From Micromonospora sp. WMMD1082 (lineage in GTDB: Bacteria; Actinomycetota; Actinomycetes; Mycobacteriales; Micromonosporaceae), in the NCBI RefSeq assembly GCF_029626175.1, contig NZ_JARUBM010000002.1, positions 6,713,001 to 6,777,000 of the forward strand: a DNA stretch of 64,000 nt, written 5' to 3'. The position numbers and the translations under genes are program-made. Below the pieces are notes generated by a model. That model made no database searches, was not told the origin of the DNA, and saw nothing but the letters and a program-made list of their open reading frames with translations. Position 1 is the stretch's first letter; each line of letters opens with the position of its first letter. Below, one piece after another: positions 36,276 to 44,000 of the stretch.

Positions 36276-36338
36276 GGCAGTGAGCATCCAGACTCGGGCA
36301 CGATGCGTCAACGCGACACCTACCGAAGGGAGAGCCTG

Positions 36339-37469
36339 GTGCTGATCGACCTGGCCGACGCCGAGCCCGCCATGTCGGGAGGCAAGGCCGCCGTGCTCGC
36401 CCGACTCCTCGGGGCGGGGTTGCCGATCCCACCCGGCTTCGTGGTGCCGATCGCCGCGTACGAGCAGGCGGTCGACGGCCCCTCCGCCGAGCTGGTCAAC
36501 GAGATCGCCCAGGCGCTGCCGCGGATCGGCGGCGGCTACGTCGCCGTACGCTCGTCGGCGACCAGCGAGGACACCGCCCACGCCACCGCCGCGGGCCAGC
36601 ACGACACCTTCCTCGGCGTACGCGGCCCCGATCAGGTGGCCGACGCCGTACGCAGATGCTGGGCGTCGCTGCGCTCCGAGCGCGCCGTGGCATACTGGCG
36701 CCGGCAGGGCGACCCGGGGTCACCGACGATCGCCGTGCTGGTGCAGCGCCTGGTGGACGCCGACGTCGCCGGGGTGATGTTCACCGGCGACGACGTCCGG
36801 CTGGAGGCGTCCTGGGGGTTGGGCGAGAGCGTCGTCAGCGGCCACGTGACACCGGACTCCTGGGTGGTTTCCGGCGACGCCGTCACCCGCCGTACGCTCG
36901 GCACGAAGACGACCCGGATCGACCGCACCGTCGCCCGCGAGGTGGAACCGGCCGACCGGGATCGCTTCTGCCTCACCGACGACGAGGTCACCCGTCTCGC
37001 CCGGCTCGGTCGGCAGATAGCCGATCTGCTGGGCGGCCCGCAGGACATCGAGTGGGCGATCGCCGACTCCCGGGTCTGGATCCTCCAGGCACGCCCGGTG
37101 ACCAGCTCCCTCCCCGCCGCACCGGCGGCCGCCGCCGGGGACGGCACGGCCCGCGCAGGTACGCCCGCGAGTCCGGGCTCCGCCACCGGACCGGTGCGCG
37201 TGGTGCGCGGCCCCGCCGACTTCGCCCGCGTCCGGCCCGGCGACGTGCTCGTGTGCCGTACCACGGATCCGGCGTGGACACCGCTGTTCGGCGTCGTCGC
37301 CGCGGTCGTCACCGAGACCGGCGGCCTGCTCTCGCACGCCGCGATCGTGGCCCGCGAGCTGGGCCTCCCGGCCGTCCTGGCGATCCCGGACGCGACAACG
37401 GCCCTGCCCGACGGCGCGCCGGTCGAGGTGGACGGAAGCACCGGCAGGGTCGCGCTCCTTGACTGCTAG
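36339..37469 (+). CDS. Minimal PEP-utilising enzyme (ATP-grasp plus phospho-His domain)
   Basis: This 376-residue protein has an N-terminal PEP-synthase/PPDK ATP-binding domain (SGGKAAVLARLLGAGLPIPP, VAVRSSATSED, GVMFTGDDV, DIEWAIADSRVWILQARPV) and a C-terminal swivelling domain with the phosphorylated His in TETGGLLSHAAIVARELGLP. Rifampin phosphotransferases share both parts but carry a large drug-binding domain between them, absent here. The GTG at 36339 follows AAGGGAGAG and is preferred over the ATG at 36303. It probably transfers phosphate through His to an unknown acceptor; the divergent winged-helix and phosphatase genes may be its partners. Confidence 0.85.
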   Translation: MLIDLADAEPAMSGGKAAVLARLLGAGLPIPPGFVVPIAAYEQAVDGPSAELVNEIAQALPRIGGGYVAVRSSATSEDTAHATAAGQHDTFLGVRGPDQVADAVRRCWASLRSERAVAYWRRQGDPGSPTIAVLVQRLVDADVAGVMFTGDDVRLEASWGLGESVVSGHVTPDSWVVSGDAVTRRTLGTKTTRIDRTVAREVEPADRDRFCLTDDEVTRLARLGRQIADLLGGPQDIEWAIADSRVWILQARPVTSSLPAAPAAAAGDGTARAGTPASPGSATGPVRVVRGPADFARVRPGDVLVCRTTDPAWTPLFGVVAAVVTETGGLLSHAAIVARELGLPAVLAIPDATTALPDGAPVEVDGSTGRVALLDC

Positions 37470-37549
37470 AGAGGTTGACAGGTAAACGTCTGCCTGTGTC
37501 AGGTCCGTCCGAGCCTTCGCAGTGTCCGGGCAACGTTACGGGTGATCTG

Positions 37550-38086
37550 GTGAGACGAGTGTCCGTGCCGACAGCAGCCCGCGACCACGAGTCGATGCCG
37601 ACGGTGTCGGGAGGCCAGCGCTGGCTGACGTCCTGGCACCCGGTCGATGCCGCGCCCGAGGGCCGGAACCACGGAGCCGCGGGAGTCTGTGTCGGCAACG
37701 ACGGCCGCGATCTCGTCCTCATCAGCCCTGATCAGGTGCATTGGGGTTTTCCGGCAGGCCGGCCGGAGGGTTCTGAGACTCTGGGTGAAACGCTGGCACG
37801 GGAGATGCGTGAGGAGGCATGCGTCGAGGTCCTCGATGCTCGGCTGTTGGGCTTCGCGCGTAGTGAGTGCGTCGAGGGACACGAACGGGGCCTGGTGCTC
37901 GTTCGTTCCTACTGGCTGGCGAATGTCGCGATCGGTTCCTGGGAGCCGCAGTTTGAGGTCGCCCACCGCAAGGTCGTTCCAGCAGCCGAGGCGACCAGGT
38001 ACGTCCGGGATCCTGACGCGGTCGCGACCCGCATTTCGACGCGTGCCCTCATCGAGGCCGGACTCGGTGGAGATTCGAGCACGTAA
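37550..38086 (+). CDS. Nudix hydrolase
   Basis: This 178-residue (from GTG 37550) protein has a Nudix box close to the consensus Gx5Ex7REUxEExGU: GRPEGSE, then TLGETLA and REMREEACVEV. The position usually Gly near the end is Cys, and preceding HWGFPAG is standard. It should cleave a nucleoside-diphosphate-linked compound. The start is uncertain: an ATG at 37595 without a clear ribosome site is also possible. Confidence 0.82.
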   Translation: MRRVSVPTAARDHESMPTVSGGQRWLTSWHPVDAAPEGRNHGAAGVCVGNDGRDLVLISPDQVHWGFPAGRPEGSETLGETLAREMREEACVEVLDARLLGFARSECVEGHERGLVLVRSYWLANVAIGSWEPQFEVAHRKVVPAAEATRYVRDPDAVATRISTRALIEAGLGGDSST

Positions 38087-38193: not shown

Positions 38194-38583
38194 TCAGGGG
38201 ATTCGGTCGATGGATTCGCAGAGTTTGCCGCCGGATTGCAGCTCGGTCAGGCAGGTGCGCAGTTCGGCCGTTCGCCGTTCGGACTCGGCGATCAGTTCGG
38301 TGGCTATGCGGCCCCACTCCTGCGGTCCGGGGTTGGGCGGCAGGTCGGCGAAGAGGTCGGCGATTTCGCGGACGGTGAGGCCGACTCGTTGGGCCAGCTT
38401 CGCGACCTTGATCCGGCATGCTGCGCTCGCGTCGAAACGACGCTGGTTGCCGCTGTTGCGCCGGGCCGTGATAACACTGGTTTTTTCGTAGAACCGGACT
38501 GCCGACGGCGCGACGTCGGCATCGCGGGCAACGTCACCGACGGTGAAAACAGCTTCGGGCGGGGCGATGATGGCGTGGCTCAC
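38194..38583 (-). CDS. MerR-family regulator
   Basis: This 129-residue protein has the MerR helix-turn-helix FTVGDVARDADVAPSAVRFY, wing RRNSGNQRRFDASAACRIKV and dimer helix. It lacks a SoxR-type Cys cluster. The GTG at 38583 is chosen; an ATG at 38622 lies inside the operator. It faces the FMN-reductase fusion gene across a promoter with a palindrome in the -35/-10 spacer, the typical MerR activation geometry. Confidence 0.88.
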   Translation of the reverse strand: MSHAIIAPPEAVFTVGDVARDADVAPSAVRFYEKTSVITARRNSGNQRRFDASAACRIKVAKLAQRVGLTVREIADLFADLPPNPGPQEWGRIATELIAESERRTAELRTCLTELQSGGKLCESIDRIP

Positions 38584-38609
38584 GCCAGAAGGCTGCCACA
38601 CGAGCGGGC

Positions 38610-38640
38610 TTGACTTCAACATATGTTCAACCGGCAGCGT
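38610..38640 (+). promoter_or_regulatory. MerR-type promoter with palindrome in a 19-bp spacer
   Basis: TTGACT (38610-38615) and CAGCGT (38635-38640) are 19 bp apart. The spacer contains AACATATGTT, a perfect 10-bp palindrome in a TTCAACATATGTTCAA frame. Transcription would start about 38647, next to the ATG at 38648, suggesting a leaderless mRNA. Confidence 0.6.
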
Positions 38641-38647
38641 GGCTCGT

Positions 38648-40417
38648 ATGAGCGATCAGACAACCGCATTGAACGAGCACGGGAACAGGGCTGACGAGCC
38701 ACCTCTCAACCTCGTTGTCGTAGTGGCCAGCGTCCGCGATGACAGGATCGGCCGCATCCTGGGCGACTGGGTGATGGCACAAATCCCTGGGGATGTCCGG
38801 ACCCACATGGTGGATCTCACCGATCTCCACTTGCCACCTGACTCGGATCTGCAGCCCGGCGGTGGGCAGCCGACGCCGGCATCCGATCTGATGGCCGCCG
38901 CAGACGGCTTCGTGATCGTCACCCCCGAGTACAACCACTCCTACCCGGCGTGTCTGAAGCGTTTCGTGGACTGGCACTACGGCGAGTGGCAGTTCAAGGC
39001 CGCCATGGTCGTGCCGTATGGCGTACAGGGTGGGCTGCTCGCCGGTGAGTACCTTCGCCCGGTCTTCGCCGAGCTCTCCGTGGTCACCACTCGTCGCATG
39101 GTCGCGCTCCGCGCGCCATGGGTACACCTCACCGAGGGCCGCTATGTCGCTCCTGACGGGGAGGACGGCGCGGTCCGGGACGCCGTCCGCGAGCTCTCCT
39201 GGTGGGCCGGCGCTCTGCGGGAAGCACGGCGTCGACGCCCGTTCGGCGGCGTCGACGACACCGGCAACGCCGCGAGCGAGGCCGTGGTTTCCTGGCTGGC
39301 GGCACAGCCCGAGACCGTTGACCCGACGGCGATCGCCGACCTGGCTTCGGATGCCTTCGTCGTCGGGCTCGGCGGCAGCACACGCGAAGCACACGAGCCC
39401 TTCCAGATCGTGGAGCACGCCACCCATGCGCTGATCGATCGCGGTTTCCGGGTCCTCGCCATACTCGACAACCAGCGCGTGGGTGCGCTTTACGACCGCT
39501 ACGTGCGCGGTGCGGACGTCAACATCGATTCCTCGCTGCGGCAGGGCTGGGGGCCCTGGCAGACGAGCGAGATGCGGGACGCCCTCACGCGGCTCCGGCG
39601 CCGCAACGCGACCCGGCCCGACGACCCGGTGCGGGTGATCGGAGTGGGTGGCTCGCGGGTGCTGCCCGCTGACTACGACCGTGTCGTGGACTTGATCGCG
39701 GCCATCTCCCCAGCCGAGGTGCCACAGGTCCGTGAACTGCTCGCCGTCATCCGCACTGCTCACGACAATGGCGAGCATGTGCAGCGGGCCCAGGGCACCC
39801 ACCCAGGCACGCCGTTCGTGAAACTCGCGCGCAAGGCGCGTGCGATCGCCGGGCGGCTCGAAGGTGCCGGGCAAGACGAGGCCGTGCGGCTACTCGACAT
39901 GATCGTCGAGCACCACGCGAACGCGATCGGGGTGGGATACGACGCGGAACGTGAGGAGCGGGCAGCCGCCGAACGGATCCTGGAGTGGCACCGGCGTACC
40001 GGCGATCGGATCGTCCTCTGGGAGGGCAGCGCTCACGTCGCGGCGCACGGCGGCGTCATGCTCGGCTCCCATCTACGGGAAGCCCTCGGCGACCGATACT
40101 TCGCCGGTCACGTCACATTCGGCCACGGTCTTGTCCGCAACAGCAAGATCCCATTGCCCGCCTCCGGTTCGCTCGAGGATCTCTTGCTCTGCGCCGGCGG
40201 CGAACGGACGGTGAACTTGGCCGCCGACGTTCCGGTCGACGTCGCCGCGCGACTCGACGCGCCTTGGCGGACGAGACTGATCTCCGGGGTGTACGACCCC
40301 GGAGATGACGCCGAGCACTACTACGAGCTGCCCTCGCTGCGATCCAGCTTCGACGTCGTCGTCTTCGTCCCCATGGTCGCCCCGATTCAGCCCCTACCGC
40401 CCGACCGTGCGGCGTGA
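38648..40417 (+). CDS. FMN reductase fused to an erythromycin-esterase-like domain
   Basis: This 589-residue fusion has an N-terminal NAD(P)H-dependent FMN reductase domain (about 18-190, with VVVASVRDDRIGR and FMN-site TPEYNHSYPACLKRFVDW) and a C-terminal erythromycin-esterase-like domain (about 230-585: FRVLAILDNQRVGALYDRYV, GPWQTSEMRDALTRLRR, VLWEGSAHVAAHGG). The motif carrying the catalytic Glu and His in esterases (LGExTHG) reads LGGSTREAHE, and the following EADW-type segment reads ILDNQ. The hydrolase is therefore probably altered or inactive, although the later AHVA His remains. The MerR-type gene upstream likely activates it under redox or drug stress. Confidence 0.85.
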   Translation: MSDQTTALNEHGNRADEPPLNLVVVVASVRDDRIGRILGDWVMAQIPGDVRTHMVDLTDLHLPPDSDLQPGGGQPTPASDLMAAADGFVIVTPEYNHSYPACLKRFVDWHYGEWQFKAAMVVPYGVQGGLLAGEYLRPVFAELSVVTTRRMVALRAPWVHLTEGRYVAPDGEDGAVRDAVRELSWWAGALREARRRRPFGGVDDTGNAASEAVVSWLAAQPETVDPTAIADLASDAFVVGLGGSTREAHEPFQIVEHATHALIDRGFRVLAILDNQRVGALYDRYVRGADVNIDSSLRQGWGPWQTSEMRDALTRLRRRNATRPDDPVRVIGVGGSRVLPADYDRVVDLIAAISPAEVPQVRELLAVIRTAHDNGEHVQRAQGTHPGTPFVKLARKARAIAGRLEGAGQDEAVRLLDMIVEHHANAIGVGYDAEREERAAAERILEWHRRTGDRIVLWEGSAHVAAHGGVMLGSHLREALGDRYFAGHVTFGHGLVRNSKIPLPASGSLEDLLLCAGGERTVNLAADVPVDVAARLDAPWRTRLISGVYDPGDDAEHYYELPSLRSSFDVVVFVPMVAPIQPLPPDRAA

Positions 40418-40905
40418 CCGGGCGCGGGCAGCACCTGGAACACCGGATAGTCGGCGGCGATCTGGGCGAACTGCGCCATCGGCGCCCCCCGCCGGACCGG
40501 CACGTGCGGCCGCGCTCCCGGTGCCTTGTCCAGGTAGTGGCGCAGGATCGGCGCCCGCTGCGCGACGGGCACCTCCGCCAGCAGCACGGATTGGCGGTGG
40601 TCGCGCCGCAGCACCGCCCGCCCTCCAGCGGCTCGCACGTTACGCACCCAGTTCGCCTGCTCGCCCAGCATCGACACCAGGTAGCGCCCACCGTCGTGAT
40701 CGACAGCGACCAGCGGGAACGACACGGTACGGCCACTGCGCCGACCCACGACCTCCAACGTCACCCAGTTGCCGGGGGCGAGAAAACCGGTCGAGAACTG
40801 CCAGGCCGAGACCCGGTTCATCGCCCGAGCCAGCCAGTTGGGTCTACCGCCCCGATACATCCACTGCTTCACCCGGTAGAGCCAGGAACCGCTCACCCGA
40901 TCCAT
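40387..40905 (-). CDS. Deazaflavin (F420)-dependent nitroreductase-family protein
   Basis: This 172-residue protein of the DDN/F420H2-dependent quinone-reductase family has GNWVTLEVVGRRSGRTVSFP, VDHDGGRYLVSMLGEQANWV and RNVRAAGGRAVLRRDHRQS. The family uses reduced F420 to reduce quinones or nitro compounds. The ATG follows GGAGAGGATC. It ends 31 bp inside the convergent fusion gene. Confidence 0.87.
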   Translation of the reverse strand: MDRVSGSWLYRVKQWMYRGGRPNWLARAMNRVSAWQFSTGFLAPGNWVTLEVVGRRSGRTVSFPLVAVDHDGGRYLVSMLGEQANWVRNVRAAGGRAVLRRDHRQSVLLAEVPVAQRAPILRHYLDKAPGARPHVPVRRGAPMAQFAQIAADYPVFQVLPAPGHAARSGGRG

Positions 40906-41065
40906 GTCCGATCCTCTCCGGCATCGCCCTGCGTCTCCCTGAATGCTTGCACTGCCACGGATCGGGCGGCTACGGCACCGCCGGCACGGTTTCGCCTCCC
41001 CGGGTCTTCGGCCTGACCGGCCGGGCCACCCGCGAGGGTGACCCGGCCGGGGCCGGCCTGTCGGT

Positions 41066-44000
41066 TCAGCGGCGCAGCGCCAACCGGTAGACCCCGCCGG
41101 CAGCGGTGCCGGCGTACAGCCACGTGCCGTCCGGGCTGACCGCCAGCGAGCGCACCGAGCTGTCCGGCAGCCCGGCACCGATGTTGCTCCAGGTGCGGCC
41201 ACCGTCGGTGCTGCGCAGCACGCCACGGCCACCGAAGCGCAGCCCGGCCTCGGCGAAGTCCGCCGATCCGGCATACCACACCCCACGGGACTCGACGAGC
41301 TCGCTGACCCGCATCGGCAACGTGAACCGGCCGCCGGCGCTGCGCGCCTCGGTGAAGGTGCGCCCGCCGTCGGTGCTGACCCGGATGGTGGCGCCGCCGA
41401 CGATGATCCGCCGGCTGTCGACGGAGAGCGCGGAGACCGGGCCGTCCAGCACCTTCACCCGGTTCACCCCGCCGTCGTCGGACCGCCAGAGACCGCCCTC
41501 CCCGCCCAGCCAGACCCGATCCGGGTCACGCGGGTCGCCGGCCAGCGCGGCGTACTCGGTGAGGTGGTTGATCCGCCGCCAGGTGGCCCCGCCGTCCCGG
41601 CTGGTCAGCAGTCCGGCCCCGGTCAGGTCCTTGTACGCGAGGTAGAGCCGGCGCGGATCGGCCGGGTGCACCAGCAGCGCCAGCGGAGAGGCGTAGTCGG
41701 TGAAGACGTCGGAGTAGCTCGATCCGCCGTCCAGGCTCCGCTGCAGGCGGATGCTGAAGAAGCCGGTCTGGAGGAGCTTCCACACCGTCCTCGGGTCGCG
41801 CGGATCCGTGACGAGCCCGCGAACCCCGAACCCGATCATCCCCTCGCCCTGGGTCGGACCCCAGTCCAGGCGGCCGGGGTCGACCGGCAGCGGCGCGCGG
41901 TACACGTCCGAGGGCGTACCGACCAGCAGCTTGCCGCCGGCCACCAGCAGCTCGTCGGCGGGCACCCCCGGGGTGCCGATCCGGGTGTACCGCCGGGCGT
42001 CCGTCGTGCTGAAAACGCCCACGGTCTCCATCCCGACCAGCAGTGTCCGGTCGTCGTCCGGCCACTGGGCGAGGCTGTTCACGATCGCCCTGCCCGCCTT
42101 CGCCGCCGGCCGCCAGGTACGGCCCGCGTCGGTGCTGATCCGGTTCTCCTGGTTGGTGTCCACCAGCAGGGTCCGGCCGGTGGCGGTGAGGCTGAGCAGG
42201 TGTTCGACGTCGAGCAGGTGCCGCCACGTGCCGCCCCGGTCGGTCGAACCCCAGACGCTGCCATCCCATTGCGCGACCGCCACCGTCTCCCCGGCGACCA
42301 CCACGGTCCTGGGCGTGGCGAAGAAGTCGGCGGCCGGGCGGACGAGGGCGGGTGCCCCGGTCGCCACCGACCACCGCCAGACCCCGTCGTCGGAGGTCAG
42401 GAAGAGGTCGTCACCGGCGAAGGCGATCCCGGTCAGCAGGCCGGACCAGAACGCCGGGGTCGACGTCCAGGTGTCACCGCCGTCGCGGCTGACCTCGACC
42501 GTCGACTCGGTCGCCGCCACCAGCACGCCGCCGTCGGGCGAGACGACGAACCCGGCGACCTGGGCGTCCGGGAACGGCAGGCTTCGCCAGGTGCGGCCGG
42601 CGTCGTCGGAGCGCAGCATCCGGCCCTGGTACGTCGGGTCGTCGCGGGAGGTGACCGCGACCCAGATCCGGTCCGCCCGTCTCGGGTCGAGCTGGACCGT
42701 GGTCCGGCCGCTCGACACTGCGGCAAGCCGCTCGTACCGCCAGGTGCGGGCGCGATCGGTGGAGATCCACAGACCGGCGACGCCGGGCGAGGTCACCACG
42801 AGCCGGTTCGGGTCAGCCGGCGTGGTTGCCAGCTGCCCGCCCGACCCGTACGGCCCGACCAACTGCCACGGCCTCGCCGCCGCGTCCTCGGCCACCTCGA
42901 AGTGGGTTCTCCCGACGATGGTCGCGCCGCTGCCGGTACGGACGCTGGCCGTGACGGCGTACGTCCCGGGCCGGTCGCCGGTGACGGGGGCGTGCCACCA
43001 CACCCCGCCGTCGGCGATCGGCGTCACCTCGGTCCGCCGGCCGTCCGGCCCGGTGACCACGATGGCCGGTGCGGTCTCGACCGGGTCCAATGTGTCCACG
43101 TAGACGGCGCTGCGACCGTCGCTCGGGTCGGGGGTGGCGTACACCCATGGCGTCCGCACCGCCAGCAGGTACGGCACCCGCAGGTCGGTGCCCTTTCCGC
43201 CGGCGGCGGTCAGCCAACCGGAGACGTCCGGGTGACCCTGGTCCGGCGCCGGCGCCTCGATCCGGACGGTGACGGCGGCGGACCGGCCGGCCGGCACGGT
43301 CACCCGCTCCGGGGTGACCCGGACGACGCCCGGGCTGCCCGCCGCCGGAGTGACGCGCAGCCGTACCGTCGTGGACGTGCGTCCGTCGTTGCGCAGGGTC
43401 ACCGTGCCGGTGGTCCGGACCCGGTCTCCGGTGAGGTCGGCGAGGCCGAGCGAGAGGGCCGGCGGATCGGCGGTCACCTCGGCGTCCAGCGCCGCCGGCA
43501 GATCCAGCCGGCCCGCTCCGGCCGAGGCCGGACCAGCATCGACCTTCGTGGCCGAGCCGACCAGTGCGCCCGTCATCCCGGCCGGCGACACCTCCGGACG
43601 GAGCTGGCGCAGCAGCGCCCCGGCCCCGGCGACGTGCGGGGCGGCCATGCTGGTGCCGCTGTAGCGCTGCACGCCGGGTGCCCAGAGTGCCGTCGGCACC
43701 GCCGAGCGGATCTCCACACCGGGGGCGACGAGCTGGGGCTTCAGGCCCCACCGTAGGTCCGGCCCCCGGGAGGAGAAGCGGGCGATCTGGTCGGTGGCGT
43801 CCTGGCCGCTGATGGCGACCCGGACCCGGCCGGCGTCGAGCAGCTGCCGGAGTTCGGCGTACTGGCCGGGGTCGTCGATGCCGAGCACCACGAGCCGGTT
43901 GAAGCGCAGTTCGTCGCGCGGATCGGGGCTCTTGGTGACGGTCGCGGCGAAGCCGCCCGCCGGCCCGTCGGCGCCGGTCTCGTCGCCCACCAGGGAGCGG

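Follow-up and report, generated by a model that had tools for sequence, protein, structure and literature searches.

A single gene in a 64,000-nucleotide stretch of the Micromonospora sp. WMMD1082 genome (RefSeq assembly GCF_029626175.1, contig NZ_JARUBM010000002.1, positions 6,713,001 to 6,777,000 of the forward strand; hereafter the window) joins an FMN reductase to an erythromycin-esterase-like domain. At the sequence level, this fusion is conserved, and its two parts occur as adjacent unfused genes in relatives. A SoxR-like MerR-type regulator is encoded divergently, the promoter between the two genes has a conserved architecture, and the esterase-like half has other residues at three of the four positions that form the catalytic set in the erythromycin esterase EreC. 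The gene is a rare fusion that rests on a more widespread gene pair and on a subfamily with an altered active site, which makes it a new variation on known kinds of protein. We favour, with slightly less than even confidence, the account in which the product detoxifies redox-active small molecules, probably quinone-like ones, in two steps, and in which stress would induce its synthesis through the adjacent SoxR-type regulator.

The fusion gene (38648–40417, plus strand) is a single open frame of 589 residues with an ATG at 38648, a stop codon that ends at 40417 and no internal stop (Table 1). PF03358 (FMN_red) matches residues 21–153 at 97.7 bits against a Pfam gathering cut-off of 24, and PF05139 (Erythro_esteras) matches residues 265–575 at 94.1 bits, far over its cut-off. 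The protein belongs to both families by score and fold; for PF05139, both the score and the two-lobe fold agree. The initial annotation, which was made from the sequence alone, had described a two-domain fusion at exactly these coordinates. Three loops of the reductase half (SxR, PEYN...P..LK and YG..GG) presumably bind FMN and are found in the window protein and in each fused row that extends over them. In the longer forms ASxR, TPEYN...P..LK and YG..GG, they are retained in these fused rows and largely in the split partners. Among the fused rows, P0011 has ASPR, and the record of P0003 starts late; split FMN_red partners sometimes deviate, as in the YGLHGA of L101, L104, L105 and L056.

Table 1. 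Features of the fusion locus, in window coordinates.
Feature	Position	Strand	Basis or remark
Fusion gene, FMN_red + erythromycin-esterase-like domain	38648..40417	+	Frame, Pfam, ten other fused clusters
FMN reductase half, about residues 21–190 (Pfam 21–153)	38708..39217	+	ASVR, TPEYNHSYPACLKRFVDW and YGVQGG flavodoxin-like stretches
Linker, about residues 191–226	39218..39325	+	Variable in length and sequence
Esterase-like half, about residues 227–585	39326..40402	+	R246, L273, D274, HxxxEH (372–377), H423, H463
SoxR-like MerR regulator without iron-sulfur cysteine cluster	38194..38583	-	Frame reaches ATG 38622; GTG 38583 likelier start
-35-like box TTGACT	38610..38615	+	
Imperfect dyad TTCAACATATGTTCAA	38615..38630	+	Likely MerR operator
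-10-like hexamer CAGCGT	38635..38640	+	TAGCGT in many relatives; 7 nt before ATG

Sequence and profile searches, in which the best 7994 candidates by shared words were scored, placed both domains in one chain in at least 11 of 65 homologous clusters, namely that of the window protein and ten more 90%-identity clusters. The other 54 are free-standing esterase-like proteins; all cluster counts are lower bounds. A profile built from the 11 fused sequences recovered the same 65 clusters and no further distant fusions among the candidates scored. The fused clusters, which include Micromonospora sp. KC721, Micromonospora sp. KC606 and Lentzea alba, share 58–81% identity with the window protein. A frameshift or misassembly that joined two genes, the artefact against which the initial annotation had cautioned, is ruled out because ten further 90%-identity clusters have both domains; a second genome, G221, also carries a fused gene. 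Nonsynonymous and synonymous rates (dN/dS, NG86) between the window gene and this G221 homologue are 0.065/0.374 in the FMN half, 0.116/0.343 in the esterase-like half and 0.214/0.304 in the linker, and both halves are under purifying selection by this comparison, which likewise speaks against an artefact. All fused rows fall on one side of a branch with 97/97 support in a tree of the esterase half. A search of genome contigs recovered only relatives of the FMN half, at seven Streptomyces loci.

The esterase-like half departs from EreC at the catalytic centre. E47, H50 and E78 of EreC align to G243, R246 and L273, which replaces three of the four catalytic residues. The fourth, H289, is retained as H463 at the second His position of the HNxH motif; H289 was placed via the chain numbering of 6XCQ, which is an H289N mutant. 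The window motif reads VGLGGSTREAHE, and ILDNQ replaces the EADW segment, as expected from the initial annotation, which had noted the loss of the LGExTHG Glu and His and of an EADW-type segment. Its view of an altered active site therefore holds for the equivalents of E47, H50 and E78 and needs correction at H289. The basic R261 of EreC aligns to a gap in the subfamily in the mixed alignment described below, with no clear counterpart. Because the catalytic set E47, H50, E78 and H289 was examined and only H289 is kept, the protein should not be called an erythromycin esterase on this sequence.

The altered site is shared well beyond the fusion. In an alignment of 65 rows, Arg occupies position 246 in all 64 rows with a residue present (one row has a gap), and Glu occurs in no row at either 243 or 273. 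H372, E376, H377, H385 and H423 are each found in 65 of 65 rows and R369 in 64 of 65. At position 274, 58 rows have Asp and 7 have Glu, and 62 rows have His at position 463. A mixed alignment set 19 canonical rows beside 21 rows of the subfamily, which came from 11 of the 65 clusters and from 10 loci that are more distant. Arg at 246, H372, E376, H377 and H423 are present in all 21 subfamily rows, none of which has Glu at 273. The canonical rows have Glu at 273 and Tyr at 423 in 19 of 19 cases and never His at 372. These rows are 19 of 20 loci chosen by GE..HG; Glu 243 and His 246 hold there by construction, so only the other columns are informative. By these alignments, Arg in place of H50 is the signature of a subfamily, the members of which share a nearly invariant group of polar residues of their own (R246, D274, R369, H372, E376, H377 and H423). 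Such conservation of an alternative polar set is expected of a rebuilt pocket and speaks for one that has been repurposed and is not dead. It may also amount to the restored catalytic set that the initial annotation had named as a second ground for refutation.

The retained H463 and the PF05139 membership would also suit a macrolide-inactivating enzyme, in which a rearranged site hydrolyses the macrolactone and the reductase is an accessory. This is very doubtful, since none of the 65 rows has His where EreC has H50 (one row has a gap there) or Glu where EreC has E78, EreC matches the profile at only E 0.15, the regulator and the reductase partner are of redox type, and the same genome has a separate, second PF05139 gene with a canonical GEATHG motif (L120, G000:C2:1597560-1598603).

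Separate FMN_red and esterase-like genes are frequent neighbours. Matches at E 1e-40 or better were found in 36 of 160 genomes of the genus, 15 of them with an esterase-half match. Two of these 15 are fused, ten have FMN_red within 700 bp on the opposite strand, one (G730) has it 5.1 kb off, and none was found in G249 and G666. A close unfused esterase-like gene has FMN_red alongside in 10 of 13 genus genomes, with a MerR gene between the two in 10 of the 10 adjacent cases. Outside the genus, FMN_red adjoins the esterase-like gene in 13 of 33 loci (E 1e-5, flanks of 1.5–7 kb); loci with only 1.5 kb flanks (the L152/L159 set) are left out of this count, and one of the 33, L039, has Asn instead of Arg at the H50 position. 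Eight lower-scoring places got no locus and were left out of the collection. The two genes are in tandem at six of six loci of genus g34, with a divergent MerR gene found at five, and further pairs occur in families f19, f20 and f29. Tandem pairs are separated by tiny gaps; the genes of L102 overlap by 4 bases, and each of the pairs of L152 and L159 shares one reading frame, which is interrupted by two stop codons in L152 and by one in L159. Divergent, tandem and fused loci therefore give three arrangements: divergent around the regulator, tandem, and fused. The adjacency of the two genes in relatives predicts that the pair works together. The tiny gaps, the overlap in L102 and the single in-frame stop in L159 would ease the joining of two independent detoxification enzymes of one regulon by loss of a stop codon, with no coupling of their reactions, and the linker is weakly conserved. 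Such a by-product of adjacency appears improbable, as Micromonospora, Lentzea and further clusters retain the fused chain across the identity range given above.

Some loci are of separate interest. FMN_red genes flank the esterase-like gene on both sides at L056. L050 (genome G060) has a tandem FMN_red and esterase-like pair, and no MerR gene was found there at the threshold at which close relatives have one. At L041 (G211:C1:1977929-1978159), about 77 residues match near the end of the esterase half, possibly a remnant. The esterase-like gene of L152 and L159 is shortened and lacks the HxxxEH stretch, and the SoxR-type regulator at these loci has a full CIGCGC cluster.

The divergent regulator gene (38194–38622 at its longest) is of the MerR type predicted in the initial annotation. 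Relatives, compared by eye, favour the start at GTG 38583, and ATG 38622 falls inside the promoter dyad. The product contains a MerR DNA-binding domain (PF13411, 42.6 bits against 21.6). Its best NCBIfam score is to SoxR (TIGR01950), at 82.2 bits, which is below the equivalog cut-off of 116.9. The iron-sulfur ligands of SoxR form the motif CX2CXCX5C. This motif is absent in 32 of 35 aligned regulators, including that of the window, and present in three Streptomyces ones; 12 loci that repeat the same places are omitted from the 35. All 32 cluster-less regulators have Cys at the C69 position, and Cys is found at the C135 position in 35 of 35 (142-residue numbering). By these sequence comparisons, the regulator belongs to the MerR family and is a relative of SoxR, not SoxR itself. 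Because C69 and C135 are conserved without the cluster, our guess is a single-thiol or ligand sensor. In L006, L010 and L011, the Streptomyces FMN_red relative is transcribed away from a neighbouring SoxR-type gene that has the complete cluster. A defence-system identity was rejected: PADLOC gave no match for the fusion, and the regulator matched mad1 over the helix-turn-helix only, which was judged to be generic MerR similarity.

The promoter elements are arranged in the order TTGACT, 19 bp containing the dyad TTCAACATATGTTCAA, CAGCGT, 7 nt and ATG. The strict core is present in 28 of 34 divergent pairs, a set from which repeated places are omitted; near variants were seen by eye in L006, L047, L096, L098 and L100, and L088 yielded no sequence. 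The spacing of 7 nt between the -10 box and the start was computed in 20 and recognised by eye in 6 more, where the script took an earlier GTG; 2 were incomplete. The dyad is a perfect palindrome, TTCAACATATGTTGAA, in L043, L044 and L077–L079. MerR operators are dyads within a promoter spacer of 19–20 bp to which the regulator binds; here a conserved dyad lies in a 19-bp spacer and is a likely candidate operator. The dyad pattern is matched exactly at one place in the genome and, with a mismatch, at one more. In the window, a search that allowed up to 3 mismatches found the pattern a single time, against 0.04 expected. By these counts the regulator looks local, and a wider regulon was rejected. 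The start codon 7 nt after the -10 box, in a conserved architecture, is in line with a leaderless mRNA.

The interpretation put forward in the initial annotation stands in part: the domain pair is real and uncommon (fused in 11 of 65 clusters), the Glu and His are lost, a stress-type regulator gene lies next to it, and the leaderless-type promoter is backed by the conserved -35 box, 19-bp spacer, -10 box and start 7 nt further on. It is not supported where it would tie the altered site to the fusion alone, since Arg at the H50 position is common to the free-standing relatives.

In the proposed two-step reaction, the FMN half would take electrons from NAD(P)H and reduce a quinone-like compound, as its family suggests. 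The esterase-like half, with a pocket presumably rebuilt around R246, D274, HxxxEH, H423 and H463, would bind the reduced product and open or otherwise modify it. The fusion would keep the halves equimolar, and the product could pass between the sites. Expression would be switched on by the SoxR-type regulator next door, which is likely a thiol or ligand sensor. In one simple evolutionary scenario, an esterase-like gene would have joined a SoxR–reductase pair, the cluster would then have been lost, and the two enzymes would have fused in one lineage. We put forward more tentatively a family-wide version for actinobacteria, in which a SoxR-type redox module would have captured the esterase fold, with a new site (R246/D274/HxxxEH/H423/H463) for reduce-then-process chemistry and with the tandem and fused stages both alive.

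Several observations weigh against this two-step account. The detoxification of redox-active drugs is argued from the families and the SoxR parallel. Position 463 is Arg in 3 of the 65 rows and is not His in 2 of the 21 subfamily rows (19 keep it), and 9 of the 21 still have Glu at the E47 position (243). The FMN half of the structure model is less sure (block pLDDT, predicted local distance difference test, 58–91). L152 and L159, which are linked to SoxR, are without the HxxxEH stretch, though by eye they keep Arg at the H50 position. Ten free-standing proteins of uncertain context sit within the fused clade of the esterase-half tree, and with such proteins among the fused rows, one fusion with later splits is indistinguishable from several fusions; the fusion may have been undone later or may have arisen more than once. 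In 21 genus genomes the close FMN_red has no counterpart of the esterase half at the E 1e-40 threshold, and of the 33 loci from beyond the genus, 20 showed no adjacent FMN_red under the search settings given above. A scan of ten neighbours of FMN-less esterase-like genes at six loci (two of them flank L046, which belongs to the genus; gene calls by a crude codon-position method) found no common family. With 20 of 33 loci lacking a detected FMN_red and no family shared by the scanned neighbours, esterase-like members can occur without the reductase.

The HxxxEH stretch probably lies in the lobe that matches the minor lobe of EreC, where it may bind and not catalyse; no EreC residue on the minor lobe is implied in catalysis according to PMC7979712. 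This bears on the idea that the esterase-like half is a non-catalytic ligand binder, which would capture a substrate for the reductase or control its activity; the initial annotation had suggested that this half may sense or bind rather than hydrolyse. Such a binder is favoured by the loss of three EreC catalytic residues out of four. Mutation of H50 or H289 in Ere enzymes lowers activity about 1000-fold, that of E78 abolishes it, and E47A slows it (Morar et al., as cited in PMC7979712). PMT, of the same superfamily, is described in PMC6254334 as being without the 2His/2Glu set and not cleaving KRas. However, the His/Glu/Asp/Arg set is near-invariant over 65 rows, which is more than a passive binder seems to need, and 54 of the 65 clusters are free-standing. 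We consider a pure binder unlikely, albeit worth weighing against the two-step enzyme.

The locus combines features of several known systems. In contrast to EreC and EreA (6XCQ, 6XCS; PF05139), which are unfused and have E47/H50/E78 and a canonical WxHNxH, the window protein is joined to a reductase and has G243/R246/L273 and WEGSAH. Compared with BcR135 and BcR136 of Bacillus cereus (3B55, 2RAD, 2QGM), R246 and L273 stand at the positions of BcR135 His-85 and Glu-113, residues named for that protein in PMC6254334. The NAD(P)H-dependent FMN, quinone and chromate reductases (Lot6p-type 1T0I, ArsH 2Q62, chromate reductase 3S2Y) differ in that the reductase of the window is part of a larger chain. 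The flavoprotein reductase SCO2478 of Streptomyces coelicolor is a target driven by SoxR, which there responds to actinorhodin, according to PMC4146615. The window regulator is likewise closest to SoxR and divergent from an FMN reductase, with a dyad in a long spacer; it differs from SoxR in the absence of the four-cysteine cluster. Among the papers listed by literature searches, as judged from titles and abstract openings, none treats a fusion of, or a link between, an FMN reductase and an erythromycin esterase.

Fusion, operons and common regulation, and not a single unusual gene, carry the link between the two enzyme families. The findings also suggest that automatic names such as 'erythromycin esterase family protein' are misleading for a whole subfamily, the members of which lack residues reportedly required for macrolide hydrolysis. 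If the two-step reading is true, the protein would represent a self-protection route with reduction and a second modification in one chain.

Other genes lie close to the fusion. Upstream on the plus strand, a 388-residue frame at 36303–37469 carries PPDK_N and PEP-utilizers domains, and its product could be likened to a phosphoenolpyruvate synthase or an antibiotic phosphotransferase. A NUDIX-domain frame (37475–38086, plus strand) adjoins the regulator gene. Directly downstream and convergent, a frame at 40387–41286 on the minus strand has a weak match to the F420H2-dependent quinone reductase family PF04075 (28.6 bits against 22) and may encode another redox enzyme next to the fusion.
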